From Amphiura filiformis (taxonomy: Eukaryota > Echinodermata > Ophiuroidea > Amphilepidida > Amphiuridae), in the NCBI RefSeq assembly GCF_039555335.1, contig NC_092628.1:60189547-60253546 (forward strand): a stretch of 64,000 nucleotides of DNA. The letters are read 5' to 3'. The notes under the pieces were generated by a model, which was given only the letters and a program-made list of their open reading frames with translations, made no database searches and had not been told where the DNA came from. Positions 1 through 48,399 of this stretch are shown piece after piece (the first letter of the stretch is position 1; each line of letters opens with the position of its first letter). Made by a program: the position numbers and the translations under genes.

Positions 1-172
1 TACTCACAACTAATCGGCAAGTCTAAGAAACAATGCACATGCAAATCACGCTAAGTAGCAGTCTCTATCTTGCACATGCATGACACTCATACTACGCATG
101 GCTAAGGCTAAGCTGCAAAGATTCATAATATATCATGCAGTATAAACATCATTGGGATGGTTAAAACTATCA

Positions 173-685: not shown

Positions 686-734
686 TATTAAACGGCATTG
701 GTTGATAGTAAAAATATTCAATGGTAAACAACCA

Positions 735-2480: not shown

Positions 2481-4573
2481 GCCTCAAATGAGCCCTAACC
2501 TTGCAAAAATGTTCCAGTCCAGTGTTTTTGCATCAATGGATGCAGAAGCTCATGTTGGGTAACATATACCTCATGAATAAACTTGATACATGCTATCCAA
2601 TCCAAATATTTTATTTTTGTAAATTGCAAACGCAAATAGAGGTCAGTAATAATTTACAATTGACCACAAAGTGTGTTGTTCCAATCGTAAATATTAGTAA
2701 CCTCCATGAGCGCTGTGTATAGCTCAAGGACAATAACTTATTTTGTAGTCTGTATTGCTATATTGCCCTTCTCAATCATCTCCTTCTCTCTCCCTCCACT
2801 TTCTCTCCCTCTTACCATCAAATAAATGTGATAATTATCTCCTTCTTTTAGGCTTAGGCCTACTCTCATCTCTATTCCCTGCCCTCTTTCATATATACAT
2901 ATATACAGTTAGGTGTAAATCACAGGACATAGGACAGGAGAGGGTATATCCCCTTGACATGCTTGACAAGGGGTGGGGTAGCTGATGTTGCAGGCTCTAT
3001 GCTTATGTGAGAAAGTGTAGTCTAGGCCTAGGAGTTTCTCTCCCAGTAAAATGCAATTGTAATCAATCAATTGGTCAAACATTCATTTTGTGAGAATATT
3101 TGACTAATAATTGCCCTCTCCAGGGCCGGGGGCATCGCTGTTTATAACTCTTTCCCCTTTCTCGGTCAATCGTGGTAAAAAACCTCAGGATGAAAGTGAA
3201 AACTTCGTAAAAGTCTGTTAATCATATTTGATTAATATAATGGGGAATGCCCGCATCATAGTTCAATATCGGGTCACAATCAGTAGCGTATCATTTATCA
3301 AGCAGCCAGGAAGGGGGGCAGGGGGCAAAGTATCCCAGTCAACTCTTACCGTGCTGGCCAGCTCCATCTACATCGGACAGAAATCGACCAGCCATTTTTC
3401 CCCCCAAAAGACCTACATTTATTTGGTGTTTTGGGGGGAAAATATATCTTCAATACAAAAGGTCAGAATTTCAATTGATCATTGGCTTTTCATTCCAGCT
3501 ACATACACTTTAAGTACATATCATTCGATTTATAAAGTTTACTTTGAGGACTGTTAAATATCAAATATATCAAAACATCTAAATTCTAATCATTTGCCAT
3601 ATATTATGGATGTGTTCAATGCATTGGTCTGAACCACATCCGATTCCGAGTTACTCTATTTAGGATGGTGTGGTTAGCGATTGACAGGTGGTTGAGTTTC
3701 TTATTTTGTCTAATTGAGATATTCCCAGGATTTTTCTCAGACACAATTGACAACAATCCATAAGGCAGCGGCACCGTATTAGTGTCATGTTTATTATAAC
3801 CTCCTTAGTTTTTCATCACTGTTGTTATAACATTTTACATACCTTTTTTGTTTGATTAATATTTTCAATTTTAAATACTAATAGGTGGCTAGGATGCTAA
3901 AAATGACGATCCAAGAGAAGCTGTGTATACAAGAAGGCTTATGTGGACTGAGAGTAAGTAACTTTAACAGTTTGTTCTATATAATACAAGTTTGATTAAG
4001 CTCAAAGAAATTATTTCCATTAATATTTCCGTGAGGAAATGAAAAATGTTCAGAATTTATTAGTTTCATCTATCAGGATAATAATATTGATTATCATCAG
4101 TGTGATAGTTGGATTTCCTTCAGAATGAGTATCAGCAACTAAGAAGTCCATTGGTGTGTTTAAAAACTACTTCAATCATGGAGCAAGTAGTAAGAATTTG
4201 GATTACTCACTTAAATAATTAAATAATGTCATTTTGGTTCACTATATTTGACAACCTTGACCTAAGGTGGATCACTCTGCCTTGCCATCTGTGTCATGAT
4301 GATGCTTTGCCAGATTGTTCTCTGTTTTGCTAGTCTTCCAGCCCGGTCTTCCAGCTTCCACCAGGAATATCAAGTTAATGGTTGAGGAGTCTGTCTTGAT
4401 GCAATATGTCCATCTTTTTGTGGGTCTTCCTTTTCGTCGCTTTGAGATTCCATATTTTGATATTCTAAAAGTAGGAATTTGCTCACTGATATTTCTCTCA
4501 TCTATCATTAGAAACTTATTCAAAGTTCACGAATGCAAAGGAATTCTGGTGCATAAGAAATACTGGCACATTT
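2481..4573. other. Intergenic, no clear gene
   Basis: I see AT-rich single-copy sequence with a CT-rich patch near 2755-2830. Apart from the weak candidate exon at 3893-3953, I find no gene or named repeat. Confidence 0.5.
3893..3953 (+). CDS. Possible orphan internal exon
   Basis: A 61-nt block is bounded by an AG acceptor (GTGGCTAG) behind a T-rich tract and by a good donor, GAGA|GTAAGT. One frame is open and reads NDDPREAVYTRRLMWTE, which looks protein-like. I do not recognise the family and see no partner exon nearby. It could be an exon of a plus-strand gene such as the oxidase further along, or chance. Confidence 0.22.
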
Positions 4574-4717
4574 CATAAGGAGGAAGCGCCCTATTTAGCC
4601 TAGCTTTGGATATTTAATTATTTTCTTTATTTTCCACTCGACTTACTTGGGTGAAAATCATTGAAATAATTAGATGTCCAAAAAAGCTAATGTTAAATAG
4701 GGCACCTCCACCTTATG
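4574..4717. mobile_element. 144-bp foldback element
   Basis: The arms at 4574-4615 and 4673-4717 are inverted copies, both carrying GCCCTATTTA and beginning CATAAGG. Even the central part (TTAATTATTTTC against GAAATAATTA) can pair, so almost the whole element folds into one hairpin. This is typical of a small MITE. Confidence 0.7.
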
Positions 4718-4810
4718 TTATAATTCTCCTCCATATCTGCATGCAAACTAGAATTTCTGACTTCTGACTGATTTTGCTTGATCACATCATCAATGAGCTG
4801 TCTGTAGAAT

Positions 4811-6610
4811 TATGAGTGATATAATTACGTTTTATAAATTGTTATTTTGAGTGTACATAGTATGTCCATTCTTTTCTATACCACAAATAAGCCATTTAAG
4901 GTTGTTATATAACTGATGATCGTCCCTTGCCTGTCAAAAGAGTCCACATTTCTTGTCTAAATTTGGCATTTGTACTCATCAAAACCACTATACTCAACCA
5001 ATTCCAAGCTTCAACAATCCAAAAAATGATGATGTGTTGATTAGGTGGTATATCCATCTGCTTAGAGCCGTATAAATTAATGGCTACAGAAAATGGCACC
5101 CATACAAGAAAATTCAGCAGCGTGATTGTAAAGAAAGTGGCAGTGTTTCTCAAGTCAATCCAAAGTGATGAATATTGACCTTTGACCTGATTAGTTGTCA
5201 TTCCTGTGAATTGATGCTGCCTCTTTTTGATGGCTTTGAGTTGAGTATGTGTGATGTGCAAAAGATGAATATAGATGAATGTCATTATTAGAGTTGGGAT
5301 GCAGAATGGAATACAAACCAGTATAGTTATTGTATTAAATGATGCTTTGAAGCTCATTCCACAAAATCCAAGAAATGGAATGAATTTTGTCTCTGGACTT
5401 AATAGATAAGAAGTAATCCCCAAAATAATAGCTGTGGTCCAAATGATAGCATTTGCATACCTTATCTTTCGAGTGGTCACTATAACTGGATACCTAAGTG
5501 GTTTTGTAATTGCTATGTATTGGTTAATGTTCAAACCTACCAGTGAATTCATAGATGCAAAGAAAAATGCCATGAAAGCTGCAGTTGACATGATCCGACA
5601 CACAATTTTTCCAAAGGGATAATATCCAGCAAAATACGGATATATAGCTAAAGCTACTGGTGTAACATTTCCAAGGTTTGCTACAGATATAGACATGAAA
5701 AACAGTCGAGCATGATCTGGGACAGCTTTTGTTTTTGGTAGTATCAATAATGCAGTGCCATTTACCACAAGTATCATAGCTGTTGTGAAGATGAGTAAAA
5801 TTCCATTCACTGTCACAAAAATAGGTGACGGCTGATTGTCATCTGCAATTTCTGAAGCGTTTTCCATGGTTTCTTCTGTTTTCTTTCTGTTTTCATCAAT
5901 AAGTAGTTAATCCATTCATCTGAACATTATTTTGCTGTTCAGACACCATAAAGTTAAAGCTTCAATTCTCATATAATTTGCTTGTTATACTCACTTTGAT
6001 TTGCAAAAAATTCAAAATGATCTGTGCAAAACTTTGGTGTGAAAGCATCTACGAAAATTCCAAGATGTATAAAAACTGAGAACTAATAATTTCGTTTGCA
6101 AGTGTTAATGCAAAATTAATTCAGCAATAATAATTACTGGCCGAGTAGCTAGTAGTAGTAGTATAGACAGAATTAAACCAAGGCGCTTTGATTGGGAGCT
6201 ATTGATTTATAATGATGGGCAGGCAAAGTTTCATGCAAGCAATTAGGTTTAATATTTATTGGCCATATTCTTTCTTGTTTACCACTACCATTTAAGCCAT
6301 ATATTTTATTACGGTAATTGGTAGGCCTATTGCTTCAAATCTGAAATGAAATTACCAATTTTAATTCTCTCCTGCATGGACTATAATGCTTTCCTAAATT
6401 AAAATCACGATCAGCATGTTATAGTGAAATTTTGGATAGATCAGTTGAAAATTTAATATAAAACTAAGTATGGTGGGTAAATAAGTTCACTGTTGAGATA
6501 ATAACCGTAACCCTGCCAACATTAAAAACCTCAATAGCTCTCAATGCACAAAGCAACTTCAAGCGTGAGTGTCCAACATGATCCAATTTTGTAATCATCC
6601 CAACTATATG
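4811..6610. repeat. Segmental duplication, receptor copy 2 unit
   Basis: Partner of 735-2480 in the same orientation. The unit carries the intact receptor plus about 0.7 kb of upstream DNA. Identity is high in the coding part and lower, with indels, in the flanks. Confidence 0.7.
4905..5867 (-). CDS. Intronless rhodopsin-class GPCR, intact
   Basis: A single-exon receptor of 320 residues with seven membrane segments and a short tail. An N-glycosylation site lies at N3 (NAS). TM1 carries N36 in VVNGTALL. C90 before TM3 and C169 in the second extracellular loop form the conserved disulphide pair. TM4 has W143, and TM6 keeps WVP at 256-258. Three family signatures are changed: the TM2 aspartate is N64 (SVANLGN), the DRY motif is N115-Q116-Y117, and the TM7 NPxxY stretch reads SIVVL. 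I chose the start at MENASEIADD because all three copies share it. It acts at the plasma membrane, presumably through G proteins. Tandem intronless copies resemble echinoderm lineage-specific receptor expansions. Ligand and coupling cannot be read from sequence. Confidence 0.9.
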   Translation of the reverse strand: MENASEIADDNQPSPIFVTVNGILLIFTTAMILVVNGTALLILPKTKAVPDHARLFFMSISVANLGNVTPVALAIYPYFAGYYPFGKIVCRIMSTAAFMAFFFASMNSLVGLNINQYIAITKPLRYPVIVTTRKIRYANAIIWTTAIILGITSYLLSPETKFIPFLGFCGMSFKASFNTITILVCIPFCIPTLIMTFIYIHLLHITHTQLKAIKKRQHQFTGMTTNQVKGQYSSLWIDLRNTATFFTITLLNFLVWVPFSVAINLYGSKQMDIPPNQHIIIFWIVEAWNWLSIVVLMSTNAKFRQEMWTLLTGKGRSSVI

Positions 6611-7876
6611 CTTGAAAACCTTGGCAGGCCAAGGTACACGTTAATGGCGTGCTATCTCCAGACATATGTTAAAAACCTGAGGGGTCTGTGATTCAGCGCA
6701 TATTCGTCTCAGGCTCACACCGGAGAAAACTATTTCTATTTTTTTATCCCTTTTACCAAAAAGCACATGGGATGGTAGGGTTAAGTTTGAGATATGTATT
6801 AAGTTTCACAACATATTAGCAAATCTTATATTATTAGTCATAAGGTTTATGGATTATGAATCAAGATGCACAATACAGGATTCTCTTCTACCACACGCAT
6901 ACATTGCATTGTTTTGTTTTATTGTTCATTCTTTTTCCTTTAAATACAAGCCCAAAGAGAAGTAGGCCTAGGACAAGAGTGTGATACATTCAAACCCAGC
7001 GAGTCGGATTCAGTAAAGCCAAATAACAAAACAGGTTCTGTAGTAAATAGCATATTACTAATCAGTCAAAATCATACATGCATTTTGTATATATAATTAA
7101 GATTGACAGTTAATAATAAATATGCTTATATTACCAAATCTGCATCTTTGTGTTAGAGGCTTACAAAATGTTTGGCTGCATTCAAAATGTCTATGGCTTC
7201 ATTCTGACAACATGTTACAAGACTCTAAAATCACATGACATATCATTTATACACAAACGCGCCAGAAAGGGATTTAATATTTTATTTACTACGCAAATAA
7301 TCTATTTCTATGTCCCACAGAACTTGTGTATCTATTGGGAACTAACCTTCGTTATGCATTTTGAAATGTACGTGTTGATGGTTGCGCTCTACATAATAAC
7401 AAAAGAGGAGCTAGGCTGTTCTCTGTGTCAAAAAATATCATAGAATGTATGGCGCACTTGTCTATAATAATTGTGCAATGATGCGCAGAGTATCCTGGGC
7501 AGGCACTCAACTGACACGCATGTGTATGTGTGGCTGCAACTTTCAATATTGGGGTCTTTCACTAGGTGCAAAATTGTGTGAAAAGTACAGTCTTTTAAGG
7601 ACATAATGATTGTGTGAAAAATAGATTGTTTTTTTAGAAGGGGGTGCTCAATATTGGAAGTCTGTCAGCCTTCAGGGAGAATTAGAGAAATTGTGTTTAA
7701 AAGGCGTCATTTGCCAGCGAGGATTTTGTTAAAGAATGGGGGTTATTAAAAATAGGAAAAATATGGGGTCTTGAGGGGTGACGGATAAAAGATAGTGGGT
7801 CTTGGCCTGGGTCTGAGGAACCACACAGACCTTAATATTGGGTGCACATCACAGAGAGTATGACTGGCAATAATAT
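6611..7876. other. Intergenic, no clear gene
   Basis: AT-rich sequence between receptor copies 2 and 3. Short reading frames near 7150-7546 show no family signature. No inverted repeats or arrays were noticed. Confidence 0.45.
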
Positions 7877-8808
7877 TCAGGATCTATTACAGCATTTACC
7901 AGTCAAAACATTCCATATTTCTTGTCTACATTTGGCATTTGTGCCCATTAAAATTGTCATGTTCAACCAGTTCCCAGATACAGCACACCATAGCATAATG
8001 ATCAGGATATGAGGTGGTATAGTCATCTCCTTGAAATCATACACAATGTAACTGACAAAGAATGGCATCCACACAAGCAGATTAACTATTGTAATTAGCA
8101 GGAATGTACCAATGTTTCTCATTTCAACCATCGTATAATGACAACTGTGTTGATGTTGTTGTTGTTGCTCCCTTCGTTTAATGGTCTTAATATGAGAATG
8201 AGTGATACTCAGTAGATGGATGTAAACAAGTATCATCACCAAAGATGGTACAATAAATGGGGTGAAAATCAGTATTTCTTTGATACGCCCCAGGTAACCC
8301 TGCACACAAAATCCAAGATATGATTTAAAAGATGAGGATGGTATTCTTATGTGATTCGCCACACCTATAGACACTGCCAGAAGCCAAATGATCCCAGTGG
8401 CATAGCGTATCCTTCTGGTTGTCACAATCAAGGGATATTTCAATGGTTTTGTGATTGCAATATACCTATCTATGTTCAGGGCTAGGAGAAAAGTCAGAGA
8501 AGCAATTAAGCACATAGTGAGAACAGCAGATGTCATGAATTGACACACAGGTAGTCCAAGAGAATGTCCAGTAAAAAATGGATAGATGGCCATAGCAAAA
8601 GGGATACCATTTCCAAGGTTTGCCAAAGATATCGATATGAAAACAGACGAGTGTGTTTTGGTACAGCTTTTGTGTGTGGTAAGATCAACAATGCTGTAAC
8701 ATTCACCACAAATGTAACAATAGTTGTTAGTACAAGATATGTTCCATGAAAAGTTGCAATTGCGGTTGAAATCTGATCATCAGGTGAAATTTCTGAAGAA
8801 TTCTCCAT
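7877..8808 (-). pseudogene. Class A GPCR, frameshifted copy 3
   Basis: A more distant member of the same receptor family. The N-terminal frame starts at MENSSEISPDD (8808) and covers TM1; the second frame, from about 8626, covers TM2 to the tail. At about 8638-8645 the intact copy has ATG followed by A5, while this copy has A4, so one base is missing between TM1 and TM2. Unlike copies 1 and 2 it keeps a true DRY (NIDRYIAITKP), but its TM7 reads NMTIL instead of NPxxY. The third inner loop has a glutamine run, REQQQQHQH. The break may be genuine decay or a sequencing error. Confidence 0.82.
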
Positions 8809-9090
8809 TTTCATACAAAGTAGAGTTGAAAGTAGTGGAGCCAGTTGATTCTGCCTCACTCTTCTGTGATCAGTTGCAATGAAGCACATGTACACTTAAC
8901 AAATGAATCTGCATTTGAAAGTTTTCTTTTGAAGAATAAAAACAACTTGGATAGTTCAGTGGTTTGTAAGAGTACACTGCAGGATACATGTATTCAAAAT
9001 AGGCAAAAAATGGTGAAGGCATGCACTCACTTGTAACTGTAATAGCTTATATTAGTGTAAACAAAATAATTGAGTGTAGCAATATAATGG

Positions 9091-9332
9091 ACTCGTGTAT
9101 GAAATTAGTGCATAGCTATTAAACACATTAACTATAGCGAATTTATATCAGACATTCATACATTCCTAGAACTCTGTATGAAACTAGTGCATATGGCTAT
9201 TAAACACATTAACCATAGCCAATTTATATCAGACATTCATAACTCCTAGAACTCTGTATGAAATGAGTGCATGTCTATTAAACACATTAACCAACCATAG
9301 CCAATTTATATCAGAAATTCATACACTCTTAG
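9091..9332. repeat. Three-copy 80-bp minisatellite
   Basis: Units start at 9091, 9171 and 9251 and are 80, 80 and 82 bp long. Each carries CTATTAAACACATTAAC and AATTTATATCAGA. It lies in the space between the receptor cluster and the oxidase exons, with no gene inside. Confidence 0.85.
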
Positions 9333-9781
9333 AACCATATAGCCATGCACAGTCAAAAAATCCATAAGAAAAATATGCTGAGTGCATACATATTGTATTA
9401 TTACACTAGATCCTGCATAGTATGTGCTTCATGCTGTGTGTTCGTGTGTTGCAGGATCTTGAAGGTGGCTGCATTGGTATTGGTCAAATTTTCAGACATT
9501 TTTAGTATTTTGTTTGTTTGGGGCCCATAAAATTAGTAGAAATTGCAGAAATTCTTTGTTACGTATGATATGAAGTAGCTTATTTAATGCAGATCCCTTG
9601 TTAGCTCTTGTTGCTCGAGAGATTGGACACAATAACGCACCTGCGCTGAATGTTAATTCGTCCAATGCACTTCACCATGCAGGGCTTGTGCATGGGATGA
9701 TCAAGTTTATATTGTTCCTTGTCTCTGTTCATGTTCATGTTATCGCCCTGCTTGACCATACCTGTATTTGATTTGTTACAG

Positions 9782-9882
9782 GACTGGGGTAAGAAACCAT
9801 ACAATGGTGGATATCCTGTGAATGTGATGACTCCCGGTGCTTTATCTTATTTCAATGATGGATTGACTCAGCCATTTAATAG
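9782..9882 (+). CDS. Flavin monoamine oxidase-like exon, first copy
   Basis: A 101-nt exon encoding part of the FAD-binding C-terminal region of a MAO/L-amino-acid-oxidase family flavoenzyme. It reads DWGKKPYNGGYPVNV and onward to QPFNR, which aligns with the MAO stretch EQYSGGCYTTYFPPG. A natural-looking acceptor precedes it (TGATTTGTTACAG), and a GTGAGT donor follows at 9883. It ends in phase 2 and joins the exon at 15229 in frame. It differs from the later copies: Tyr replaces the cysteine that anchors FAD covalently in MAO, and Asn replaces Asp near the end. Upstream exons with the dinucleotide-binding domain were not seen and may lie before the window. Confidence 0.75.
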
Positions 9883-9910
9883 GTGAGTACCTAGTAGCTA
9901 AATGTCACAG

Positions 9911-12732
9911 GACTGGGGTAAAATTAAGGAACCATACAATGGTGGATGTCCTGTGAATGTGATGACACCAGCTGCTATATCTTATTTCTATGATGGATTG
10001 ACACAGCCATTTGATAGGTGAGTGCCTAGTATCTAGATGTCACAGGACTGGAGTAAGGAACCATACAATGGTGGATGTCCTGTGAATGTGATGACACCAG
10101 GTTCTATATCTTATTTCTATGATGGATTGACACAGCCATTTGATAGGTAAGTGCCTAGTATCTAGATGTCACAGGACTGGAGTAAGGAACCATACAATGG
10201 TGGATGTCCTGTGAATGTGATGACACCAGGTGCTATATCTTATTTCTATGATGGATTGACACAGCCATTTGATAGGTGAGTGCCTAGTATCTAGATGTCA
10301 CAGGACTGGAGTAAGGAACCATACAATGGTGGATGTCCTGTGAATGTGATGACACCAGGTTCTATATCTTATTTCTATGATGGATTGACACAGCCATTTG
10401 ATAGGTGAGTGCCTAGTATCTAGATGTCACAGGACTGGAGTAAGGAACCATACAATGGTGGATGTCCTGTGAATGTGATGACACCAGGTTCTATATCTTA
10501 TTTCTATGATGGATTGACACAACCATTTGATAGGTGAGTGCCTAGTATCTAGATGTCACAGGACTGGGGCAAGGAACCATTCAATGGTGGATGTCCTGTG
10601 AATGTGATGACACCAGGTTCTATATCTTATTTCTATGATGGATTGACACAACCATTTGATAGGTGAGTACCTAGTAGCTAGATGTCACAGGACTGGGGTA
10701 AGGAACCATACAATGGTGGATGTCCTGTGAATGTGATGACACCAGGTGCTATATCTTATTTCTATGATGGATTGACACAACCATTTGATAGGTGAGTGCC
10801 TAGTATCTAGATGTCACAGGACTGGGGTAAGGAACCATACAATGGTGGATGTCCTGTGAATGTGATGACACCAGGTGCTATATCTTATTTCTATGATGGA
10901 TTGACTCAGCCATTTGATAGGTGAATGCCTAGTAGCTAGATGTCACAGGACTGGGGTAAGGAACCATACAATGGTGGATGTCCTGTGAATGTGATGATAC
11001 CAGGTGCTATATCCTATTTCTATGATGGATTGACACAGCCATTTGATAGGTGAGTGCCTAGTATCTAGATGTCACAGGACAGGAGTAAGGAACCATACAA
11101 TGGTGGATGTCCTGTGAATGTGATGACACCAGGTTCTATATCTTATTTCTATGATGGATTGACACAGCCATTTGATAGGTGAGTGCCTAGTATCTAGATG
11201 TCACAGGACAGGAGTAAGGAACCATACAATGGTGGATGTCCTGTGAATGTGATGACACCAGGTTCTATATCTTATTTCTATGATGGATTGACACAGCCAT
11301 TTGATAGGTGAGTGCCTAGTATCTAGATGTCACAGGACTGGAGTAAGGAACCATACAATGGTGGATGTCCTGTGAATGTGATGACACCAGGTTCTATATC
11401 TTATTTCTATGATGGATTGACACAACCATTTGATAGGTGAGTGCCTAGTAGCTAGATGTCACAGGACTGGGGTAAGGAACCATACAATGGTGGATGTCCT
11501 GTGAATGTGATGACACCAGGTGCTATATCTTATTTCTATGATGGATTGACACAGCCATTTGATAGGTGAGTGCCTAGTAGCTAGATGTCACAGGACTGGG
11601 GTAAGGAACCATACAATGGTGGATGTCCTGTGAATGTGATGACACCAGGTGCTATATCTTATTTCTATGATGGATTGACTCAGCCATTTGATAGGCGAGT
11701 GCCTAGTAGCTAGATGTCACAGGACTGGGGTAAGGAACCATACAATGGTGGATGTCCTGTGAATGTGATGACACCAGGTTCTATATCTTATTTCTATGAT
11801 GGATTGACTCAGCCATTTGATAGGCGAGTGCCTAGTAGCTAGATGTCACAGGACTGGGGTAAGGAACCATACAATGGTGGATGTCCTATGAATGTGATGA
11901 CACCAGGTGCTATATCTTATTTCTATGATGGATTTACACAGCCATTTGATAGGTGAGTACCTAGTAGCTAGATGTCACAGGACTGGGGTAAGGAACCATA
12001 CAATGGTGGATGTCCTGTGAATGTGATGATACCAGGTGCTATATCTTATTTCTACGATGGATTGACACAGCCATTTGATAGGTGAGTGCCTAGTATCTAG
12101 ATGTCACAGGACAGGAGTAAGGAACCATACAATGGTGGATGTCCTGTGAATGTGATGACACCAGGTTCTATATCTTATTTCTATGATGGATTGACACAGC
12201 CATTTGATAGGTGAGTGCCAAGTAGCTAGATGTCACAGGACTGGGGTAAGGAACCATACAATGGTGGATGTCCTGTGAATGTGATGACACCAGGTGCTAT
12301 ATCTTATTTCTATGATGGATTGACACAGCCATTTGATAGGTGAGTGCCTAGTAGCTAGATGTCACAGGACTGGGGTATGGAACCATACAATGGTGGATGT
12401 CCTGTGAATGTGATGACACCAGGTGCTATATCTTATTTCTATGATGGATTGACACAGCCATTTGATAGGTGAGTGCCTAGTAGCTAGATGTCACAGGACT
12501 GGGGTAAAATTAAGGAACCATACAATGGTGGATGTCCTGTGAATGTGATGACACCAGGTGCTATATCTTATTTCTACGATGGATTGACACAGCCATTTGA
12601 TACGTGAGTGCCTAGTAGCTAGATGTCACAGGACTGGGGCAAGGAACTATACAAGGGTGGATGTCCTGTGAATGTGATGACACCAGGTTCTATATCTTAT
12701 TTCTACGATGGATTGACTCATCCATTTGATAG
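9911..12732 (+). repeat. Tandem array of 22 oxidase exon copies
   Basis: Twenty-two further copies of the 101-nt oxidase exon. They start at 9911 and 10046, then every 129 bp to 12497, and last at 12632. The consensus reads EPYNGGCPVNVMTPGAISYF, then YDGLTQPFDR. Every copy is open through the exon; the only length changes are two in-frame 6-bp insertions (copies at 9911 and 12497). Each has an AG acceptor and nearly all a GT donor; copies at 11594 and 11723 have GC instead. The spacer is only 28 nt, without a pyrimidine tract, so it is probably too short to be removed as an intron. Because 101 is not a multiple of three, joining two copies shifts frame and meets a stop within about 14 codons. 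Only one copy could be used per mRNA. Confidence 0.9.
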
Positions 12733-12748
12733 GTGAATGCGTTGTAGC

Positions 12749-12836
12749 TTTCTATGAAGGATTGACACGGCCATTTGATAGGCAAGTACCTAGTAGCAAG
12801 ATGTCAAAGGACTGGGGTAAGGAACCATACAATGGT
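12749..12836 (+). pseudogene. Broken oxidase exon fragments at array end
   Basis: Two partial copies close the array. Positions 12749-12781 match the 3' third of the exon (ATTGACACGGCCATTTGATA) and 12810-12836 match its first 27 nt. The array therefore decays at its 3' edge just before the next repeat begins. Confidence 0.75.
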
Positions 12837-12887
12837 TCTAACTTACATTTCTCAGTTACTTTTCATCCATTTCATCACCACAATCTA

Positions 12888-14862
12888 TATAATAATACGC
12901 TATTCTCTGTCTCTCTGTCTGTCTGTCTGTCTGTGACTGCTAATGTGAGGCCACCGTAGGTGATACGGGGCTCAAACTTGGTGGGTGGGTGCAGCTTGGT
13001 ATGAGGAAGAACAAGTTTATATTTTTTAAGGTCAAAGGTCAAGGACGGGGTCAAGTTCAATTGAAGTCTAATTTCAAATACTTTAAATGGCCAATCTAAC
13101 CATGCCATTGTGTTGACCTTGGACTATCAAACAAAAGTTTCCACAGTGACCTTTTCGTCAGACCAACGGTTAAGAGGTCAAAGGTCAAGAAAGGTAAAAA
13201 TTTCAAACTGCCCCTATGAAGCTCAAACTTGGTGGGTGGATGGAACTTGGAATAACAAATAAAAGTTTCCACAATGACCTTTTTGTCAGACCTACGGTTA
13301 AGAGGTCATAGGTCAAGAAAGGTAAAATTTCAAATTGCCCCTATGGAGCTCAAACTTGGTGGGTGGGTGGACCTTGACTAACAAGCAAAAGTTTCCACGG
13401 TGACCTTTTCATCATACCCACGGTTAAGAGGTCATAGGTCAAGAAAGGTAACAAATTCAAATTGCTCCTATGGACCTCAAACTTGGTGGGTGGATGGAAC
13501 TTGGACTAACAAACAAAAGTTTCCACGGTGACCTTTTCGTCATACCTACGGTTAAGAGGTCATAGGTCAAGAAAGGTAACAATTTCAAATTGCTCCTATG
13601 GACCTCAAACTTGGTGGGTGGGTGGACCTTGGACTAACAAACAATAATAATACGCTATTCTCTGTCTCCGCCTCTGTTTGTCTGTGACTGCTAATGTGAG
13701 GCCGTCGTAGGTCGCACAGGGCTCAAACTCGGTGGGTGGGTGCAGCTTGGTATGAGGAAGAACGAGTTTATATTTTTTAAGGTCAAAGGTCAAGGACGGG
13801 GTCAAGTTCAATTGAAGTCTAATTTCAAATACTTTAAATGGCAAATCTAGCCATGCCATTGTGTTGACCTTGGACTATCAAACAAAAGTTTCCACGGTGA
13901 CCTTTTGTCAGACCAACGGTTAAGAGGTCAAAGGTCAAGAAAGGTAAAAATTTCAAACTGCCCCTATGAAGCTCAAACTTGGTCGGTGGATGGAACTTGG
14001 AATAACAAATAAAATTTCCACGGTGACCTTTTTTGTCAGACCCACGGTTAAGAGGTCATAGGTCAAGAAAGGTAACAATTCAAATTGCTCCTATGGAGCT
14101 CAATCTTGGTGGGTGGGTGGACCTTGGACTAACAAACAAAAGTTTCCATGGTGACCTTTTCGTCATAGAGGTCATAGGTCAAGAAAGGTAAAAATTTCAA
14201 ATTGCCCCTATGGAGCTCAAACTTGGTGGGTGGGTGGACCTTGGACTAACAAACAAAAGTTTCCACGGTGACCTTTTTCGTCATACCCACGGTTAAGAGG
14301 TCATAGGTCAAGAAAGGTCACAATTTCAAATTAATCCTATGGAGCTCAAACTTGGTGGGTGGGTGGACCTTGGACTAACAAACAAAAGTTTCCACGGTGA
14401 TCTTTTCGTCAGACCCACGGTTAAGAGGTCATAGGTCAAGACACGTCAACATCTCCAAGTTCCCCTCTGGAACTCAAAGTTGGTGGGTGGGTGGACCTTG
14501 GACTAACAAACAAAAGATTCCACGGTGATCTTTTCTTCAGACCTACGCTTAAGAGGTCAAAGGTCAAAAGGTAAAAATTTCAAATTGCCTATGGAGCTCA
14601 TACTTGGTGGGTATGTGGAAATTGGACTAACAAACAAAAGTTCCATTGTGACCTTTTTGTCAGACCTACGGTTGAGAGGTCATAGGTCAAAAAACAAAGA
14701 TTTCAAATTGCTCATGGAGCTAAAACTTGGTCGGTGGGTGTAACTTTGGCCAAGGAAGCCCAGGTTTGTGTTTGTTAGGTCATCCATGGTCAACAATTTT
14801 GAGATCTGCAAAAGCCAATAACTATGACAGCCGAGAACCGCAAAATACGGGTAACCGCCTAG
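12888..14862. mobile_element. GGTCA-rich tandem array in a Helitron-like element
   Basis: About fourteen diverged units of roughly 120 bp, each with AAACTTGGTGGGTGG, a CCACGGTGACCTTTT word and GGTTAAGAGGTCA. Several places hold a perfect AGGTCAAAGGTCA. A larger duplication of about 750 bp is also visible, because the CGCTATTCTCTGTCTC start recurs at 12900 and 13650. The 3' edge carries GCCGAGAACCG and ends in CTAG at 14859-14862, like the copies ending at 54086 and 61718. It lies inside the last intron of the oxidase gene. Confidence 0.7.
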
Positions 14863-15228
14863 TATAGTAGAATTAGAATATTCATATATTTAACTAAATA
14901 AATCACATTCTTCCATAAAAATGCACTAACAGATCTAATTTGGTAGTTTTTCCAATAATATGTGCATCCTGTATGGTCGCAGCCATGTCAGAATTTCAAC
15001 CCGGAAGTCATATTTTGCGAATTCTGGCAGTTATGTTATTCCTTGAAAATTCACTTCCAATAAATGCCCCCTTTTTGAAATTGCAACCTGACATTTAATA
15101 GAGTAAATACAGTATATACTTTTATTTTAAAACAATGATGAATGTAATTATAATCATCATTTCATTCTACTGTCAGTAAATTGTTCAAAATAATACCCTT
15201 CTGTACTATTTTACTGTCTTCCTTATAG

Positions 15229-15349
15229 AGTCCATTGGGCTGGCACAGAATCAGCATCAATATGGCGTGGGTACATGAGTGGAGCTGTCCAGTCAGGAAT
15301 GCATGCAGCGGATGAAGTGCTTGCATGCCTCTGGCCAGGTTTATCATGA
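15229..15349 (+). CDS. Flavin monoamine oxidase-like terminal exon
   Basis: The last coding exon of the oxidase gene. A pyrimidine-rich acceptor (CTGTCTTCCTTATAG) precedes AGTCCATTGG. The first base completes the Arg codon left by the 101-nt exon, giving DR|VHWAGTESASIWRGYMSGA, then a helix ending EVLACLWPGLS and a TGA at 15347. This is the family's C-terminal FAD-binding signature (AGTE...W.GYM.GA...G..AA.EVL in MAO), including the Tyr of the aromatic cage. Family enzymes oxidise amines or amino acids with oxygen, releasing peroxide. No hydrophobic tail anchor follows, so mitochondrial-membrane MAO itself is unlikely. A donor-like GATGATGTAAGT just after the stop might permit a longer alternative end in another frame. 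Confidence 0.82.
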
Positions 15350-15805
15350 GGAGCTAGATGATGTAAGTTTGGATATGACCTTGCCGGCAGACCTTGGTGT
15401 GCAAATGTAACCCCTGGTAAATGTTTAAAATCGTGCAGGCTATTTTAGGGTATTAATAGATACCTATTTAAAATTTTAGTTTTCACTGATCACATTGTCC
15501 CCTTTTAATTTCGAGCCAAACAAATAAAGTTTAACAAAGAAAATTGCTATTTCATTCCAGCGCCTACAATGCGTATATTAGCTGACCGATCGTATTACAT
15601 GTACTATTGAGCAGAGCTTTATACAGCTGGGATGTATAAATAAGACGTAAGATGAATAGAGATAATAATGCACACAGTTTATAAGTCACTGATTCAATAA
15701 TACATGTACACATAAGCTGACATGCATGAAACATGTTAACCATCATTCGAACTTAAAATAAAACTGTAGATCTCCGGATTTAATATAAAAAGCACTTCAG
15801 GCGTA

Positions 15806-15999
15806 ATGTTCGCTCATACTACACTGTAATTGCTTTGCGGTGCGTTGCCACACCGCATTGTACTGCAAAATACTGCATTATGGTATCGCAATACATTTTA
15901 ACTTGGAAATGAGATGAGTTACGTTCAGCTGCGGCAAAAAGTAATCAATATATCGGCAACGCACTGCAAAGCAATTGCAGCGTAGTATGAACGGACCTT
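15806..15999. mobile_element. MITE, family A, copy 1
   Basis: Inverted ends both carry TTCATACTAC-like and AATTGCTTTGC words (right end reads CAATTGCAGCGTAGTATGAA). The interior word GGCAAAAAGTAATCAATAT recurs in reverse at 32291-32490, so these are two opposite insertions of one element family. No coding capacity. Confidence 0.75.
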
Positions 16000-16291
16000 T
16001 AGTCTTTCACATGGTATTTTAATTAGTACACCATTTGGGCGAAATTCAAGAAAAATTGAGGGTGTCGCTGTTGAGCAAATCACATATTATCGTTTTAAAT
16101 AAGGGTAAGAGGTCACATTTTGGACAATGTTGAGGATTCTGTCTGTACGGATCGATAGTTGTACTTGTAGCTACATGTACTGTATAGCAGGAATTTTTCG
16201 CGGGGGTTTCATTTTTGAGCTTTTCATGGTTGAACAGGCAGCTACACAATTTTTACCCTGTGAAAATATTTAATACACATAGATATAGTAC

Positions 16292-16645
16292 TTAGGGCTG
16301 TGCAATAATTATGAGGCGGGGGTAAAATTTCGAATGGCCCTCCAAAACTGCTTGCCCCCCTCTTGGCCCGCCAAAAATCTTTGCCCCCTGCACATGCCAA
16401 CTTTTTGGGATCCCAATTTTCAAACCTTAAATGGTCTAGGTATATGTTGCGAGCGCAGCGAGTGGGAAAATTTGCATATTAAAGCGTTTCCGTACTGTTT
16501 TCCTGAGCCTTTTTAGAGCATTTTATTTAAAAGGCCCCCCAATGAACGTGTGCCAAAAATCCCTTGCCCCCCTCTTGGCTGGCCAAAAATTGATTGCCGC
16601 CCAATTTTACCCTCCCCAGGGCTCATAATTATTGCACAGCCCCTT
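16292..16645. mobile_element. MITE, GTGCAATAATTATGAG family, copy 1
   Basis: The ends are inverted: GGGCTGTGCAATAATTATGAG at the left and its complement at 16623-16642. The interior alternates C-runs with TTGGCC.GCCAAAAAT words. The same termini recur at 44530, and single ends occur at about 40786, 56122 and 57536. The open frame 16334-16516 is only repeat sequence. Confidence 0.75.
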
Positions 16646-18499
16646 AATGTAAATATACATTATAAGAAATGCTTTTTAACACCCACTATACTGTCCAGAA
16701 TTGATAAAATTACGAAAAATTAACCCAGCAAAAATATCTCACTATACAGTAATTGAATGGAGCTTCTCATTTATCAACATAGACTACCCCGTAGTCCACT
16801 TGCCCTTTGTGCATTCACTGGATATTGTATTTAAGCTTAAAACTCTGATTTAATTAATGTGTGCACAATTGATAGATTTTCACATCTGATCTTTTCAGTC
16901 ACCCTACTCCCTCTGTTTGTTAGCTTCCCAAGTGGAGTACTGACTTTGGATTGCGGTTTAATTGCTTTTACACGGTTGTCTATGAGCTTCTATGGATAAG
17001 ATTGTCGGAAATCTGGCCTACTAAAATTGGCCATGATCTGTAATGCATCTTTAAATGGATCTGGCTTGCGACAGCCCAAAAATCTCGTTATGGTTTAAAT
17101 CCTCCGGGTACCTGTCATTACCATTAATAACTACATGGTACACAAGTATGCGGCCTTTGTGTTGTGTAATTGCATGAACGCGCCTGTGAGTGCATGAGCT
17201 GCCTTGTATTTGCTTGTGGTTAAATTTGATTGATAAACAAGTATGATTGACAGTGTGAGTGTTGGGGACTTTGCCCGCTCAAAATCCGCTTAAAATTGAA
17301 AGTTCATAGTCCATTTTTAACCTGGAATTTCGCGATTAATAAACTGGCAGATTCTAAAATCAGAATTGTTCAGTATTGAAGTGCCAATACAATTATGACA
17401 TTATGATATGTTGCATTCAATAATAAAGCCTACGTACACTTTACTTATACTGTCACTAATATAATTATATAAACTTTTTCATAACAATTTTGTACTAGTA
17501 TTTTGATGTAATAAATATCAGTATAATTTCGAGTCCAACTGAATGCTTTCATCATGCATTAAAAACATGCTTTTATTTATCAAAAATCAACTATGGCATA
17601 GTCTATTATCAACACTGCCATTTTCTTCATTTTGCCAATTTTTTCATATGGTAAAATTATCAAATGACAATTTTATTAACTTGTCTTTTTCATTAAAGCT
17701 ATTGCTACTTTTTTGTTTCAAATTTGTCGCACTTTTGCTGGGATCACTGCTGGTGCCTACTGTATTTTCCATCTATTTCTAATCAGTTGATTGAAATAAG
17801 CATCATTTTCAATTTGCAGGCTTGTATAGAAATTGACAAACTCTTCATGTGTGATCTGAAAAACAATGGGAAATTAGTGAAAATTAGTAACTCAATTCAA
17901 AACAAAGATAAACTAGAGCCAATCTGTGCACAAAGTGCATGACCGTAAGCCAGGCCATGTTACAGTTCAGGGTTTTAGATATGGTTTTTGGCTGGAGCTG
18001 GCTGACTGCCACAAAAGACTTTGTCTAACAAATAATGTTTTCACCATGATAAAAACTTAAAAATAGCAACAACAAAAAAATTAGGAGGTTGATACTTTGG
18101 AGATGGAAGGAGTAGCATTTTTTAGGGAAAATCACATGAAAATATGAAATCAGATTTTCGGCCATAATGACCTTTGTATGATCTTTGACCTCGATTTGGT
18201 CATGTTACATTTGTGCCACTAATAGCCATTTTGATCCTAGTGACCTAAACTTTGATGACTTACTAGTATTCCCTCCAAAAGCCACTCTATCTGACTCAAC
18301 TGTTATCACATAGTTTGGTATGATGTGAAGCATCTCTGGTAGGAGTGCAACTTTGTCCTCCCCTACTAGCACATCCACTATTTCTGGCTCCCATTAAAAT
18401 GATTGAAATACCGGCATAAAATGCCATAGGTGGGGAGTGCGGGTCATCAGCATGGCATGATATCGGGCCATCCCCCTTTAAAGCCCCTAAGTATGTTAC
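16646..18499. other. Intergenic, no clear gene
   Basis: AT-rich sequence between the oxidase end and the EF-hand gene. Apart from the diverged repeat at 17612-17755, I see no gene. I searched by eye for the missing last calcyphosin exon (an EEF..YYAG.S motif on the minus strand) and did not find it. Confidence 0.4.
17612..17755 (-). repeat. Diverged direct repeat of 19093-19232
   Basis: About 140 bp resembles 19093-19232. Shared words are CCAAATGACAATTT-like and GCTGGGATCACTG. On the minus strand both translate to a similar SDPS...KLSF.(I/N)F...NEEN pattern, open at 19 kb but with a stop here. This may be a duplicated exon or an unnamed repeat. Confidence 0.4.
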
Positions 18500-19643
18500 C
18501 TTTCCATCTGGATCGTCTGGTGTCGAATCAAAAGTTGCCAAGTAGTTTTCAAACACTTCTTCTTCAGTCCATGTCCCATCTTTATATTTCGGGTGTTGCC
18601 TAAGATTGTTTAAGTCTTGTAGGTCTTCTACAGTGACAACACCATCACCATTCTTGTCAAATTTCTCAAATGCTTTGTCAAGGATATGCATTCGTGATTC
18701 AGACATTGGTGGCTGAAAATATATAGAAAGTGTTTAGAAATCTAATCATTCAATGTTTGCAGTGGTATATAGAGCGCAATTTCCAAAATCATTCGCAATA
18801 CCAGGACAAGTGCATGCTAAGCATGCACAAATTTGCCATTTTAATGCCAAAATTGTCAAAAATTAGGTTAAAGGCCCATTCAGTGATTTGCACATCCGGA
18901 TGATCGTAAAAATCATCAAAATTCAGATTTTGGTACCTTTGTCATTGTCATAGATGTGCTAACATAGCCTGCAAGTGGTTCAGCCAAAACCCATCTATTA
19001 AGACAAAATAAGACATTTTACACGAATCTGTAATTTTGATACTGACAGTATCTAAATTAGCTACATGTATTTGAATGGGGCTTCAACTTCGTCAGTACTG
19101 CTGTTTTCTTCGTTTTTTGCCAAATTTGTCATTTCAAAAATACCAAATGACAATTTGAATGACATATCCTTCACTTTTAAGCAATTTATAAACAATTTTA
19201 ATTTTTTTACACTTGCGCTGGGATCACTGAATGGGTCTTTAAATGTAGTGTAAAACATGAGTAGAAATACAAATTATGAATTTGGTTCAATATGCGCCTG
19301 ATATTTTGAGTCAGCAGAGGTGAAAACTTCCCCCTCCCATTAATATGCCAAAGTCATTATTGTCATTTGTTGTCATCAGTCACCAAAGCCCCCTGAAGGC
19401 CGCTCTGATGACTACACCCAGGGTCTATACTATTATTATGAAATGTTAAATCTAATACTACTTACCCTTAAGCCTAACAAGAATTCGTTTAAGTCAATGG
19501 TACCACTGCCATCCTTGTCTAATGCCTGAAACATAACCTTGGCTTCATCTGGATTAACTTCAACTCCGAAATCAGGAAGAAATTTCATGAATTCTTGCAA
19601 ATCTAACGAATTATTGCCATCATCATCCATAATTCGAAATGCT
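18500..19643 (-). CDS. Calcyphosin-like EF-hand protein, two exons
   Basis: Two minus-strand exons, 19466-19643 and 18500-18712, join in phase to give LLGLR|PPMSESRM, as in calcyphosin (LRPPMS). The first exon has two 12-residue calcium loops, DDDGNNSLDLQE and DKDGSGTIDLNE. The second has DKNGDGVVTVED, then HPKYKDGTWTEEEVF and the irregular fourth loop DSTPDDPDGK, all diagnostic of calcyphosin. Splice sites fit: TTTTTAG acceptor, AGG|GTAAGT donor, TTTTCAG acceptor and AAAG|GTAACA donor. Both ends are missing: the N-terminal exon and the final exon with YYAG and the C-terminal Trp were not found. Calcyphosins are cytosolic calcium-signalling proteins. Reading past the donor at 18500 gives unrelated residues to 18296, probably intron. 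Confidence 0.88.
19093..19232 (-). repeat. Diverged direct repeat of 17612-17755
   Basis: Partner of 17612-17755. It lies between the two calcyphosin exons, and on the minus strand is open from 19258 to 19061 (FSDPSASVKKLK ... NEENSSTDE). No splice site pair makes it a convincing exon. Confidence 0.4.
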
Positions 19644-20806
19644 CTAAAAATTTATAAACAAAGGAAACCATCTGTTGATATATTGCATGGTCTACCGTGG
19701 ATGTTACTGCAACTGGGGATCGGCCCGTTAAGATGTGCAATTGACTGTAAACAGCCTAAAAATGCATTCAAAGAGCAGGTCTATTGCAAAAACAACATCA
19801 TATCATTGGCAAGCTAATATTATGAGGACATTGAAAATGACTCCTTTTTTGAGAAAATAAGACATTTAAAATTGATATTCCGCAAAAACCAACTGAAGCG
19901 ATGAGTTCCTTCGAACGAGACAGATTTGGCCTAGAAAAAAATTGATGTCATGAAGTGACTGTGCCTGTTTTGCGAGAAGGGATTATAAACATTCTCAATG
20001 CACAGAACGTATACTGTTGTTGTTCACAGAAAAAACTCTAAATTAAGTATTACAAATTTAATGGTTTTTAAACATATGGATAAAATCAGCCGCTTCTTTT
20101 TTTATATATTAGTAAATTGTGAGAACCACTGAACCAATACCAGGCTTGTTTGTACTCATTTTGATGCATTTTTCATACCGATTCCAAATATGGTCATGAC
20201 AATTTACATTTCTGAAATTTCTGAATTTTTAAAACAAAATTTGAAAGTTGTCATCTGCAAATCAACACCCGCTTGGAGAGGGTTAAAAATGTAAATATGG
20301 GCTCATAATAGGTTACACTGTAGTCAAAGTTGTTTCATTTTCATTCAGTGTAATTAATGTGCTTAAGGGCTGGAGTATGGACGTTTGCACAGTAATTTTT
20401 GTCGGACATGATAGTTCTTCAGACATATCAAATTGCATTCTGAATACGAAGAATGTCCTTCTGAAATTCACAATATGATACACATTTTATGGTAAATGAT
20501 TGAAAATTGATATTTTTGATATTTAACAGTCCTTGAAGTAATTCAACTTTATAAATCTAATGATAGGCCTAGATGTACTTAAAGTGTATGTAGCTAGGAT
20601 GAAAAGCCCACGATCAATTGAAAATTTTGACCTTTTATATGTGCCTGTCCTTGTTGGTTGATAAACACATTATTTTGGTCCTTTGCAAAAATACATGAGG
20701 TACATATGCAACTTCAAAAATGTTGCTGAATTTTAGGGTGTTTTAGACAGGTGTATTATCAGTGAATTACTTCATTATTTTGTATTCTACCATTATTCCC
20801 CTCTAG

Positions 20807-20895
20807 GTGATGGTTTCATCTTAGATGTAGACGAGGTTCCTCAAGACATGATGATAACCTCAACTGTAGTAGAAGAAGCTCAGTCAATACTATAA
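20807..20895 (+). CDS. Possible 3'-terminal exon, unknown protein
   Basis: A strong acceptor (TTATTCCCCTCTAG) is followed by an open frame DGFILDVDEVPQDMMITSTV, then VEEAQSIL and a TAA at 20893. It would be entered in phase 1, which does not fit a direct splice from the visible oxidase exon. I do not recognise the protein. It could be the end of another plus-strand gene with unseen exons. Confidence 0.35.
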
Positions 20896-21371
20896 TAGCT
20901 AGGTAAGACTGCATAGAAGAGCTATTCCATTTAAAGTACACAATACACTACCCCTGTGGAAGGTTCAGCTGAAGTCTGCCACAGAGGGAGTATGAGTTTT
21001 CATTAGAATAGACAGCTGGGTAACATTTGAAAAACTCACTCCATTTGTGGTGGAAGATATAGGTACAGCCCCGGGTACAGCCATACTACCTCTGTGGAAG
21101 ATTTAGCTAAATCAGTCCATAGAGGGAGTATAGGTTTCAGGTAGAAAAGACAATCCGGTTACTTCCATTGGAAATACTCATTCCAGAAGATAGAGGTAAA
21201 GCCGTAATACAGGGGGATTATGGGTTTCAAAATGATTAACTCTGATCAATTACATTTGAAATAAAATACTCCCCTGTGGAAGATATTTCCAAAATCTACC
21301 ACAGGGTAGTGTGTATTTCAACTGGAATAGCCCTATGGAGTGTGTCACATATCGTTATTTAAATTTGTAAA

Positions 21372-21819
21372 GCTGAATTTATACTCAATCACCAAGCAAT
21401 TGCGATGCACCGCTTTTGGAAAGTGATGGGCAATCGCTGAATTTTGCAATGCATCGCTTGTCGTTTTTGCATTTATACCTATCACAGTGATATAGCGATT
21501 GCAGACAACATTGAATTAAAATAATGTTCTGAATGCCACAGAATACATTTTTAGAGCATCCATTGCTGTCAATAATTATTGCTTTGAATTATTTCCACAC
21601 CAAAAGTTAATAATTGAGAAAGGTAAATTAATTAGCAAAATAATAGATCCAATTAGTTGGAAATGATTGGTTGATGCATTCAGGTGTCAAGTGATATCGC
21701 TCGAAAGTTGAGATTTCTTCAACACACGTCGCCTCGGCAATTTGTATTGAAAACTGAAGTAAACATTCAGCATGTGTGAGAATCGCTTTTCTGCCAAAGC
21801 GATCAAGTATAAATTCAGC
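21372..21819. mobile_element. MITE with 14-bp perfect terminal repeats
   Basis: GCTGAATTTATACT at 21372-21385 is exactly inverted at 21806-21819. Just inside, both ends carry GATTG/CGATCG-like words and AGCGAT motifs. A related single end (CGATTGAATATAAATTCAGC) lies near 54683. The reading frame 21628-21846 is part of the repeat. Confidence 0.65.
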
Positions 21820-21877
21820 AGGGAGGGAGTTCGGCCTTTTGATCATATTTGTATTCTTTATGTTCTTTAAGCAGTCA

Positions 21878-21935
21878 AGTTAGCTCGAGTTAGTCAAGTT
21901 CGAATATGGTGCGAGAGGTTGCAGGCCCAAGCAGA
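21878..21935 (+). mobile_element. SINE head (tRNA-like 5' part)
   Basis: GCAGTCAAGTTAGCTCGAG resembles the acceptor and D-arm of a serine-type tRNA with an A-box-like TAGCTCGAGTTAG. It is followed by an anticodon-arm-like GTGCGAGAGGTTGCAGG. The T-arm expected next is absent here but appears at about 26465 beyond the satellite block. The tRNA resemblance is by eye. Confidence 0.4.
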
Positions 21936-21949
21936 AATTCTATACAGCA

Positions 21950-23515
21950 AGAAGTGTATCAAAAGTGTATCAAAGTGTATTAAAACTGTATCAAACAGCA
22001 ATTTAATACAGTTTTGATATACAAAGGGTGTATTGAAAATGTATCAACTGAAAATATAAGGTATCAAAACTGTATCAAATACCACCTAACTGTATCAAAA
22101 ATGTATCAAAAGTGTATCAAATTTGAACTTAGTTAATTTTGGCCATGCTTGTGGTGTATCAAAAGTGTATCAAATTGAACTTTGCAGTTTTTCAGTGTAT
22201 GTAAAGTGTATCAAAGTGAACTTTTGGTGCTAGATGTATATCAAAAGTGTATCAAATTGGACTTAGTCAAATTCTGGCTGCATACAGTGTATCAAAAGTG
22301 TATTAAATTGGACTTTGCCTGTTTTTAGTGTATGTAAAGTGTATCAAATTGAACTTAGTTAATTTTTGGTGTCTAGAGGTATATCAAAAGTGTATCAAAT
22401 TGGACTTAGTCAAATTCTGGCTGCATACAGTGTATCAAAAGTGTATTAAATTGGACTTTGCCTGTTTTTTAGTGTATCAAAAGCGTATTAAATTGGACTT
22501 AGTTTATTTTGGGTGGCTAGAGGTATATCAAAAGTGTATCAAATTGGGCTTTCATAAACTGACCTTTTGTAGTGTATCAAAACTGTATCAATAACTGATC
22601 ACATGTCTAGATAATGACTCATCATTTTCAAATTTGCCCATGTGGCATGTATGCAGTTAACACCAGGATTTGCATTTGGAAATGTACTGTATTTTAGAGC
22701 AAATTATGGTGTTTTATTTATCATGATGACGATACAAACATGCTTGTAGACTGCACATTAGGTTACAATGTAGTTGTAATCAGGGACTGTGATTAAAGAG
22801 GAAATATCTGACTTTGTTCTGATAAGGTAAGCTTACTATATATTATATATAGGGCCTCAATGTATATGTATTAAGCATGAATATAGCACATGCCTGTATA
22901 GTAGATGTTATTGGTAGCCTTTTTGTCTCTTTATTGAGGGTAACAACTTCAGTGACAAGCACTGCATTCCAAGCAGGCCTTCTGATGTATGTATGTTCCA
23001 TTTTGGTTGGGTTTTGCTTCTTTTTTGCAAGACTTTCTCACACATTTATCCTATTGCGTTGTAATTTTGAACGTTGATAGGGGAAAGTGCATTGCGCTGC
23101 TCCGTGATGGGGGAAACTGCTAGAGGTCAGCATTAGCAGTAGAGGGCAGTGTTGAATTTGAGCTTGATTAGACTAATTTCAAAATTTGACCTTTGACCCC
23201 TTCACTTTGGGGTCATTAATGTTTGCAAATATGTTTAGATCATGTACGGATAATTCTTGTTGAATTTGAGCTTGATTGGACCAATTTTGAAATTTGAAAA
23301 ACTGTATCAAAAGTGTATAAAAAACTGTATCAAAAGTGTATCAAAACTGTATCAAAAGTGTATAAAACTGTATCAAAAGTGTATAAAAACTGTATCAAAG
23401 TGTATCAAAAACTATCAAAAGTGTATCAAAAAACTATCAAAAGTGTATCAAAACTGTATCAAAAGTGTATCAAAAACTATATCAAAGGTGTATCAAATGG
23501 CATGTATCAAAAATA
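21950..23515. repeat. GTATCAAAAGTG satellite, left block
   Basis: Two repeat patches, 21950-22600 and 23290-23515, are built from GTATCAAAAGTGTATCAAA in plus orientation. In the first the word is spaced about 50 bp apart by TTGGACTTAGTCAAATT-type filler; in the second it is nearly continuous. About 690 bp of non-repeat DNA separates them. The frames open here (22328-22594, 23257-23559) encode only VYQKCIKL-type repeats. Confidence 0.85.
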
Positions 23516-23559
23516 GGGCGGTCCAGCTGGCCAGCATTAGAATTGGAATGCTGATTTGA

Positions 23560-26290: not shown

Positions 26291-26464
26291 CATTATCTTG
26301 GCATTTGATAGACTTTTGATATGTATAAAATGTGTATGCAATGTTAATTTGATACAGTTTTGATACATAAAAGTGTATGAAATGAGGGTTCCAATTCAAA
26401 GCCTTTTATTTCATACATTTTTCATACGTATCAAAAGTGGTGTATCAAAAGTGTATCAAATTTC

Positions 26465-27292: not shown

Positions 27293-27299
27293 GCCCCTG

Positions 27300-28592: not shown

Positions 28593-28599
28593 ATGTCCC

Positions 28600-48392: not shown

Positions 48393-48399
48393 TTCGTCG

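Follow-up and report, generated by a model that had tools for sequence, protein, structure and literature searches.

Tandem repetition of a monoamine oxidase-like exon in Amphiura filiformis: probable passengers of a minisatellite expansion

How a coding exon comes to stand 23 times in succession with its frame and splice borders intact, and whether such copies are a set from which one is chosen, is the question raised by a locus on contig NC_092628.1 of the ophiuroid Amphiura filiformis. In the window (the whole stretch of 64,000 nucleotides that was analysed), Tandem Repeats Finder reported an array at 9774-12749 with a period of 129, 23.0 copies, 95% matches, 0% indels and a score of 5305, which is far beyond chance. 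Each 129-bp unit consists of a 101-nt exon that encodes the FAD site of a flavoenzyme resembling monoamine oxidase (MAO) and a 28-nt spacer, as an earlier note on this DNA had described. The same note held that all copies are open and that the only indels are in-frame ones of 6 bp, and this was also found: the coding frame was open in 23 of 23 copies, and the exon measured 101 nt in 21 copies, a common 6-bp insertion extending it to 107 nt in the other two (copies 2 and 22). The spacer was 28 nt long in 22 of 23 cases, the one after copy 23 being broken. A single terminal exon follows the array, as had been claimed, although two damaged partial copies that went unmentioned lie between (Table 1). 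A strong-looking donor, GTAAGT, was noted at 15363-15368, 14 nt past the MAO stop, so that the "terminal" MAO exon could precede an intron in the 3' UTR.

The exon was preceded by AG in 23 of 23 copies and followed by GT in 21 and by GC in two, with donor sequences of GTGAGT (18/23), GTGAAT (2), GTAAGT (1) and GCGAGT (2). The motif NGGCP, said to be that of the repeated exon, was retained in 21 copies and GGCP in 22; copy 1 reads GGYP and is the one copy in which the cysteine of the FAD site is absent. A change of Trp to Arg at residue 2 was present in three of 23 copies, and the 23 copies together encode 13 distinct, near-identical peptides. Near-identical tandem repeats are difficult to assemble, and an assembly error could have inflated a lower real copy number, but 19 of the 23 units are unique and only copies 11 and 12 and copies 14 and 20 form identical pairs, and this explanation is regarded as highly improbable.

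Table 1. Positions of array components and associated features in the window.
Feature	Position	Strand	Remarks
23 whole exon copies with spacers	9782-12732	+	Starts 9782, 9911, 10046 ... 12632
Copy 1 of MAO exon	9782-9882	+	GGYP (FAD Cys to Tyr); E5K, I21L, Y25N and D33N relative to array consensus
First 28-nt spacer	9883-9910	+	GT...AG; copy 1 donor GTGAGT
Exon copies 2-23	9911-12732	+	101 nt (107 nt in copies 2 and 22), 28-nt spacers between
Copy 2	9911-10017	+	In-frame 6-bp insertion as in copy 22
Copy 22	12497-12603	+	6-bp insertion as in copy 2; last exon base G to C
GC donor in place of GT after copy 15	11695-11696	+	
GC donor in place of GT after copy 16	11824-11825	+	
Partial copy 24	12749-12781	+	3' third of exon only, 31/33 nt as in consensus; GC donor next
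Partial copy 25	12810-12836	+	First 27 nt of exon, 27/27 as in consensus; other intron sequence next
128-bp minisatellite	13115-14746		13 copies, 77% matches, 6% indels; same intron as MAO array
Terminal MAO exon	15229-15349	+	Includes stop TGA at 15347-15349
Candidate polyadenylation signal AATAAA	15523-15528	+	173 nt past terminal-exon stop
116-bp minisatellite	23541-26265		23.7 copies; non-coding in appearance

The proposed MAO identity was borne out by database comparisons. When a consensus copy was fused with the terminal exon, the product matched the last 65 positions of the Pfam Amino_oxidase profile (PF01593) with E=1e-8 and MAO-B in PDB with E=1e-14, and corresponded to residues 395-460 of the MAO-A probe, which is the region of the FAD site, the repeated exon alone corresponding to residues 395-429. 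In a search with a profile of five proteins, all 23 copies and the terminal exon were recovered with E≤1.3e-5 while the next open reading frame of the window scored E=5.6. Relatives were also found in bacterial and archaeal plasmid records, with 42-52% identity among the best 20 of 34 matching records. The match to the end of PF01593 and the presence of the cysteine in all copies but the first are features of the C-terminal part of a flavin amine oxidase. The FAD cysteine was present in four of the five profile homologues, the Arthrobacter protein being without it, and copy 1 also lacks a glutamate that is present in three of the five. In dog MAOA, exon 12 encodes the FAD binding site (PMC5237129), so that the exon repeated here represents the same part of the protein as vertebrate exon 12; the available part of that report mentions no repeat of the exon, whereas here it is repeated and its first copy is without the cysteine.

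Other searches were negative or uninformative. None of 54 pattern matches was confirmed in a protein scan of genome contigs, a scan that is insensitive since plasmid records do contain relatives. A 35-nt exact pattern had no matches in viral contigs, and an Rfam scan returned nothing at gathering scores. The amine-oxidase match was absent from a whole-frame Pfam scan of 1-14702 and one frame of 14701-28700, to which no weight is given because it missed the known copies too. Two matches in whole-frame scanning, TAXi_C (E=0.018) and GP68 (E=1.3e-5), the latter within the array in another frame and with no single stretch passing, were taken for repeat artefacts.

Evidence of selection on the frame was sought in the differences among copies. 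Variable sites among copies 1-22 numbered 22 of 101 in the exon and 7 of 28 in the spacer (Fisher p=0.80), and among copies 2-22 the corresponding values were 15/101 and 6/28 (p=0.40). Copy 23 was left out of these comparisons because its spacer is broken; its inclusion gives 24/101 and 15/28. Thus, exon and spacer diverged equally, an outcome that had been named beforehand as one that would speak against an exon array kept for use. The comparison of synonymous with non-synonymous differences, also called for in the earlier note, gave a neutral-like result. With each derived allele counted once, 17 of the changes in the 23 copies altered an amino acid and 7 were silent (omega 0.70-0.87 with transitions weighted 1-3, binomial p 0.46-0.82), the corresponding numbers for copies 2-22 being 9 and 5 (omega 0.52-0.64, p 0.21-0.54). 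As point estimates these values of omega (0.52-0.87) lie below 1 but, at the low power provided by 24 exon changes, they are not different from 1.

The preservation of open frames and splice dinucleotides was also compared with chance. The chance that 24 random exon changes include no stop codon was 0.29-0.35, and the chance that 31 substitutions and one indel do damage (by a stop, a frameshift or the loss of a splice dinucleotide) no more than once was 0.23-0.27. If a GC donor is taken as harmless, copies 1-23 are without a damaging change, for which the neutral chance is a borderline 0.052-0.064, and this is the strongest hint against neutrality. The ratio of indels to substitutions in copies 1-22 of the MAO array was 1:29, compared with 3:26 in the 116-bp array (p=0.35) and 7:40 in the 128-bp array (p=0.14), all small numbers. 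These counts were taken from 22 of 23 delimited units of the 116-bp array (one 99-bp unit being left out), from eight of the ten units delimited in the 128-bp array and from copies 1-22 of the MAO array, whose copy 23 was set aside together with the two partial copies, which record larger deletions. The argument that a frame would not survive in an ordinary minisatellite thus fails here, given the chance of escaping a stop and an indel share not distinguishable, at these numbers, from that of a non-coding minisatellite. With exon and spacer equally variable, 17 replacement to 7 silent changes, and these values for stops and indels, selection on the frame was considered and not shown. Where an array has been homogenised recently, and few independent changes have therefore accumulated, neither open frames nor AG...GT borders are a sign of selection.

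The relationships among copies bear on how the array grew. Mean exon differences were 9.7 for copy 1 and 7.5 for copy 23 compared with 2.5-5.0 for copies 2-22. Interior copies were closest to one another at lags of 1, 6, 7 and 8 (0.006, 0.020, 0.010 and 0.024, respectively, of 20000 permutations, uncorrected for the 12 lags tested), and no single tree could accommodate 13 of the 45 pairings of informative sites. The ends of tandem arrays tend to decay. The homogenised interior, the diverged ends and the block-wise similarity seen here point to unequal exchange, slippage or conversion together with edge decay and, in 23.0 head-to-tail units of 129 bp, are the properties of a minisatellite.

A natural comparison is provided by the 116-bp array, which resembles the MAO array in copy number, unit size, divergence (3.9 substitutions per unit in 22 of 23 delimited units, as against 3.0 in copies 1-22 of the MAO array) and share of indels but differs from it in unit sequence and, unlike it, does not look coding. 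Within the 116-bp unit stands TTTGATACAGTTT, which is the motif AAACTGTATCAAA from the consensus of an array at 23298-23497 in reverse complement, and this complementarity suggests that related arrays in opposite orientation lie side by side. The 128-bp minisatellite has a period close to that of the MAO array and a different sequence. Seven tandem arrays with periods of at least 22 and at least three copies span 8582 of the 64000 bases, an eighth (27-bp, 44862-44973) being outside this sum, which suggests that expansions of this kind arise readily in the region. A degenerate interstitial TTAGGG repeat of approximately 14.5 copies (46692-46778) and a long TTTA tetranucleotide run of approximately 70 copies (57682-57968) were also noted in the window. 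Two of the options in the earlier note, a neutral minisatellite with an exon inside it by chance and a homogenised array, are supported by the diverged ends, the block-wise similarity, the neutral-like ratio of replacement to silent changes and the matched 116-bp array.

Whether individual copies could be spliced was assessed from their acceptors. The consensus for branch points is yTnAy. Acceptors were judged by the AG exclusion zone method, in which the 3' splice site is sought as the first AG past the branch point, any AG within the last 12 nt being disregarded (PMC1431707). The acceptor of copy 1 has an AG-free zone of 76 nt with four yTnAy matches, including one at -27, and that of the terminal exon a zone of 52 nt with one match. 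For copies 2-23, with AGs every few nucleotides, the zone is 13-16 nt and contains no match in 22 of 22 cases. The stretch scanned for yTnAy was approximately 79 nt for copy 1 as opposed to 16-19 nt for copies 2-23, and because of this much shorter stretch the density of AGs is the stronger point against the latter acceptors. Of the 20 positions from -24 to -5, pyrimidines occupy 13 upstream of copy 1, compared with 10 upstream of copy 2 and likewise of copy 14. Thus, only copy 1 seems to have a complete acceptor, by human-derived rules that may not be those of the host, and by the same rules usable splice signals are incomplete at 22 of 23 acceptors while the donors look fine. The AG...GT borders that had been noted nearly everywhere are therefore real as dinucleotides but, as splice sites, those of copies 2-23 seem to be without the remaining parts of an acceptor.

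The spacer itself is probably too short to be spliced as an intron. The limits for this come from human work, in which a 43-nt intron is named as spliced in cells (PMC4463651) and constructs required at least 46 nt from donor to branch point for productive splicing (PMC11291888); ciliates, in contrast, are described as splicing introns of approximately 25 bp (PMC5014332). A join of two copies (14 and 20) runs into stops, in agreement with the earlier claim that joining two copies is non-productive, and the unspliced stretch of copies 14-15 has stops in both spacers, on which ground a continuous repeat protein was rejected. With one good acceptor, a spacer that would not be spliced and stops in the longer products, the array would behave like one exon followed by a long passenger intron.

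These findings bear on the possibility of a mutually exclusive exon array, in which one of 23 copies would be included and others kept out by steric hindrance at the 28-nt spacer and by frame-dependent decay of multi-copy products. The open frames and AG...GT borders, the stops in the two-copy join and a spacer seemingly of insufficient length for adjacent copies to be spliced together are in keeping with this arrangement. In contrast, the lack in 22 of 23 copies of both an AG-free zone longer than 16 nt and a branch-point match within it, the near-identity of the 13 products and the absence of constraint specific to the exon argue against it, as does the failure of the copies to show diversification under coding constraint (omega as above, at low power). 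Complementarity between spacer and flanking introns, as might allow selector-docking pairing, was within chance in a crude ungapped test of the consensus spacer: the longest helix was 9 in both flanks compared with shuffled means of 9.4 and 10.6, and 148 and 197 of 200 shuffles reached a helix of 9. We therefore hold a mutually exclusive array to be very unlikely, and the option of one exon selected from a set, as raised in the earlier note, is not supported.

Two further readings assign the array a regulatory role. According to one, the acceptor of copy 1 faces 23 donors that act as decoys, use of a distal donor keeping spacers and stopping translation after copy 1, such that copy number would tune output. 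The donor sequences, most of them GTGAGT, and the immediate stops in unspliced read-through of copies 14-15 are compatible with it; however, the donors are as variable as the rest of the array and the spacer is without constraint, and little credence is given to this account. According to the other, an exon-sized VNTR would dial MAO output, a proximal donor giving enzyme and a distal donor a product that is truncated or decays, and monoamine breakdown would be tuned by a heritable number of copies, and in a stronger form later copies may sometimes be used, restoring the FAD cysteine absent from copy 1. This is likewise thought to be quite improbable.

The remainder of the gene was sought in the 64-kb window by tblastn with five MAO proteins, which detected no credible MAO exon besides the array copies and the terminal exon. 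The best other match was with a Deinococcus protein (E=0.34 at 44556-44645); with MAO-A the value was E=3.1. In a held-out profile test, which is a guide only since real exons differ from clean pieces, 11 pieces each of human MAO-A and an Acinetobacter protein, all 35 aa long and upstream of the FAD-site region, were searched for, of which 9 and 10, respectively, were detected at E<0.05. Insensitivity alone is thus unlikely to account for missing all other MAO exons, and most are not in this window. Three GPCR-like loci on the opposite strand (879-8895, minus) separate the window start from copy 1; they are related to one another, rhodopsin-like and in tandem, the middle locus (4905-5906, minus) being a single open frame and the other two each being split over two overlapping frames. 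Elsewhere, Pfam matches indicated an EF-hand coding stretch at 18296-18733 on the minus strand and a BTB_2 coding stretch at 47995-48429 on the plus strand. An open frame at 60878-61345 resembles the tail of a LINE reverse-transcriptase ORF; it had no Pfam match and contains a 41-bp perfect duplication (61262-61343).

The locus may accordingly be a dead fragment, in which the end of a MAO gene was either duplicated to a place apart from the gene itself or is what remains of a gene in decay, with nothing translated here. The missing exons in a search that recovers most test pieces, the intervening receptor loci, and the absence from copy 1 of both the FAD cysteine and the glutamate common to three of five homologues favour this interpretation, while the open terminal exon with its good-looking acceptor and the AATAAA past its stop do not, and the other exons may sit on the far side of the window start, in which case the receptor loci would be nested within a long intron. 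A dead fragment is a serious prospect, somewhat short of an even chance, and is compatible with a passenger array.

The most satisfactory explanation, and one that we consider probable, is that a minisatellite expansion captured the MAO exon, was homogenised by unequal exchange and has been tolerated, the copies being passengers rather than a chosen set. The process would have begun with tandem duplication of a 129-bp stretch of a MAO-like gene, comprising the FAD-site exon and approximately 28 nt of intron. Expansion to 23 whole copies would have followed by unequal exchange, slippage or conversion, as in minisatellites, the interior becoming homogenised and the edges decaying. The spliceosome could still use one good acceptor, that of copy 1, with one donor, longer or multi-copy inclusions would end at stops, and no function would be needed for the expansion. 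Since splicing could use at most one copy, the surplus copies lying in the last intron, such an array would be tolerated. A transcript made through copy 1 would, in the absence of the FAD cysteine, specify an enzyme that is defective or without covalent FAD, or else the locus is decaying, at which point the passenger array and the dead fragment overlap. What the earlier note observed is confirmed and its interpretation is partly supported.

Human minisatellites that overlap exons, as internal tandem repeats in segmental duplications (PMC2812944), resemble the MAO array in that expansion takes in an exon or an exon-intron boundary and alters gene structure; their variable units average 30 bp in four copies, whereas here a 129-bp unit with a whole exon and both borders is present in 23. 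Dscam-type mutually exclusive exons (PMC9013439, PMC6071210) are similar in being tandem copies of equal phase of which only single inclusion keeps the frame. Unlike them, the copies here are near-identical, without constraint and separated by 28-nt spacers, 22 of 23 acceptors look incomplete and the crude test gave no docking pairing. A MAO exon array was absent among the literature matches listed; most subscription journals lay outside the search, and no claim is made that such an array is unpublished.

The unusual feature of the array is that a whole coding exon with both its borders can reach 23 copies by minisatellite dynamics. Its open frames and AG...GT borders also serve as a caution, in that, in an array homogenised recently, such features are no evidence of selection. 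The spacer measures 28 nt and the length of the exon is not divisible by three, so that the rules of splicing would themselves make the surplus copies harmless.
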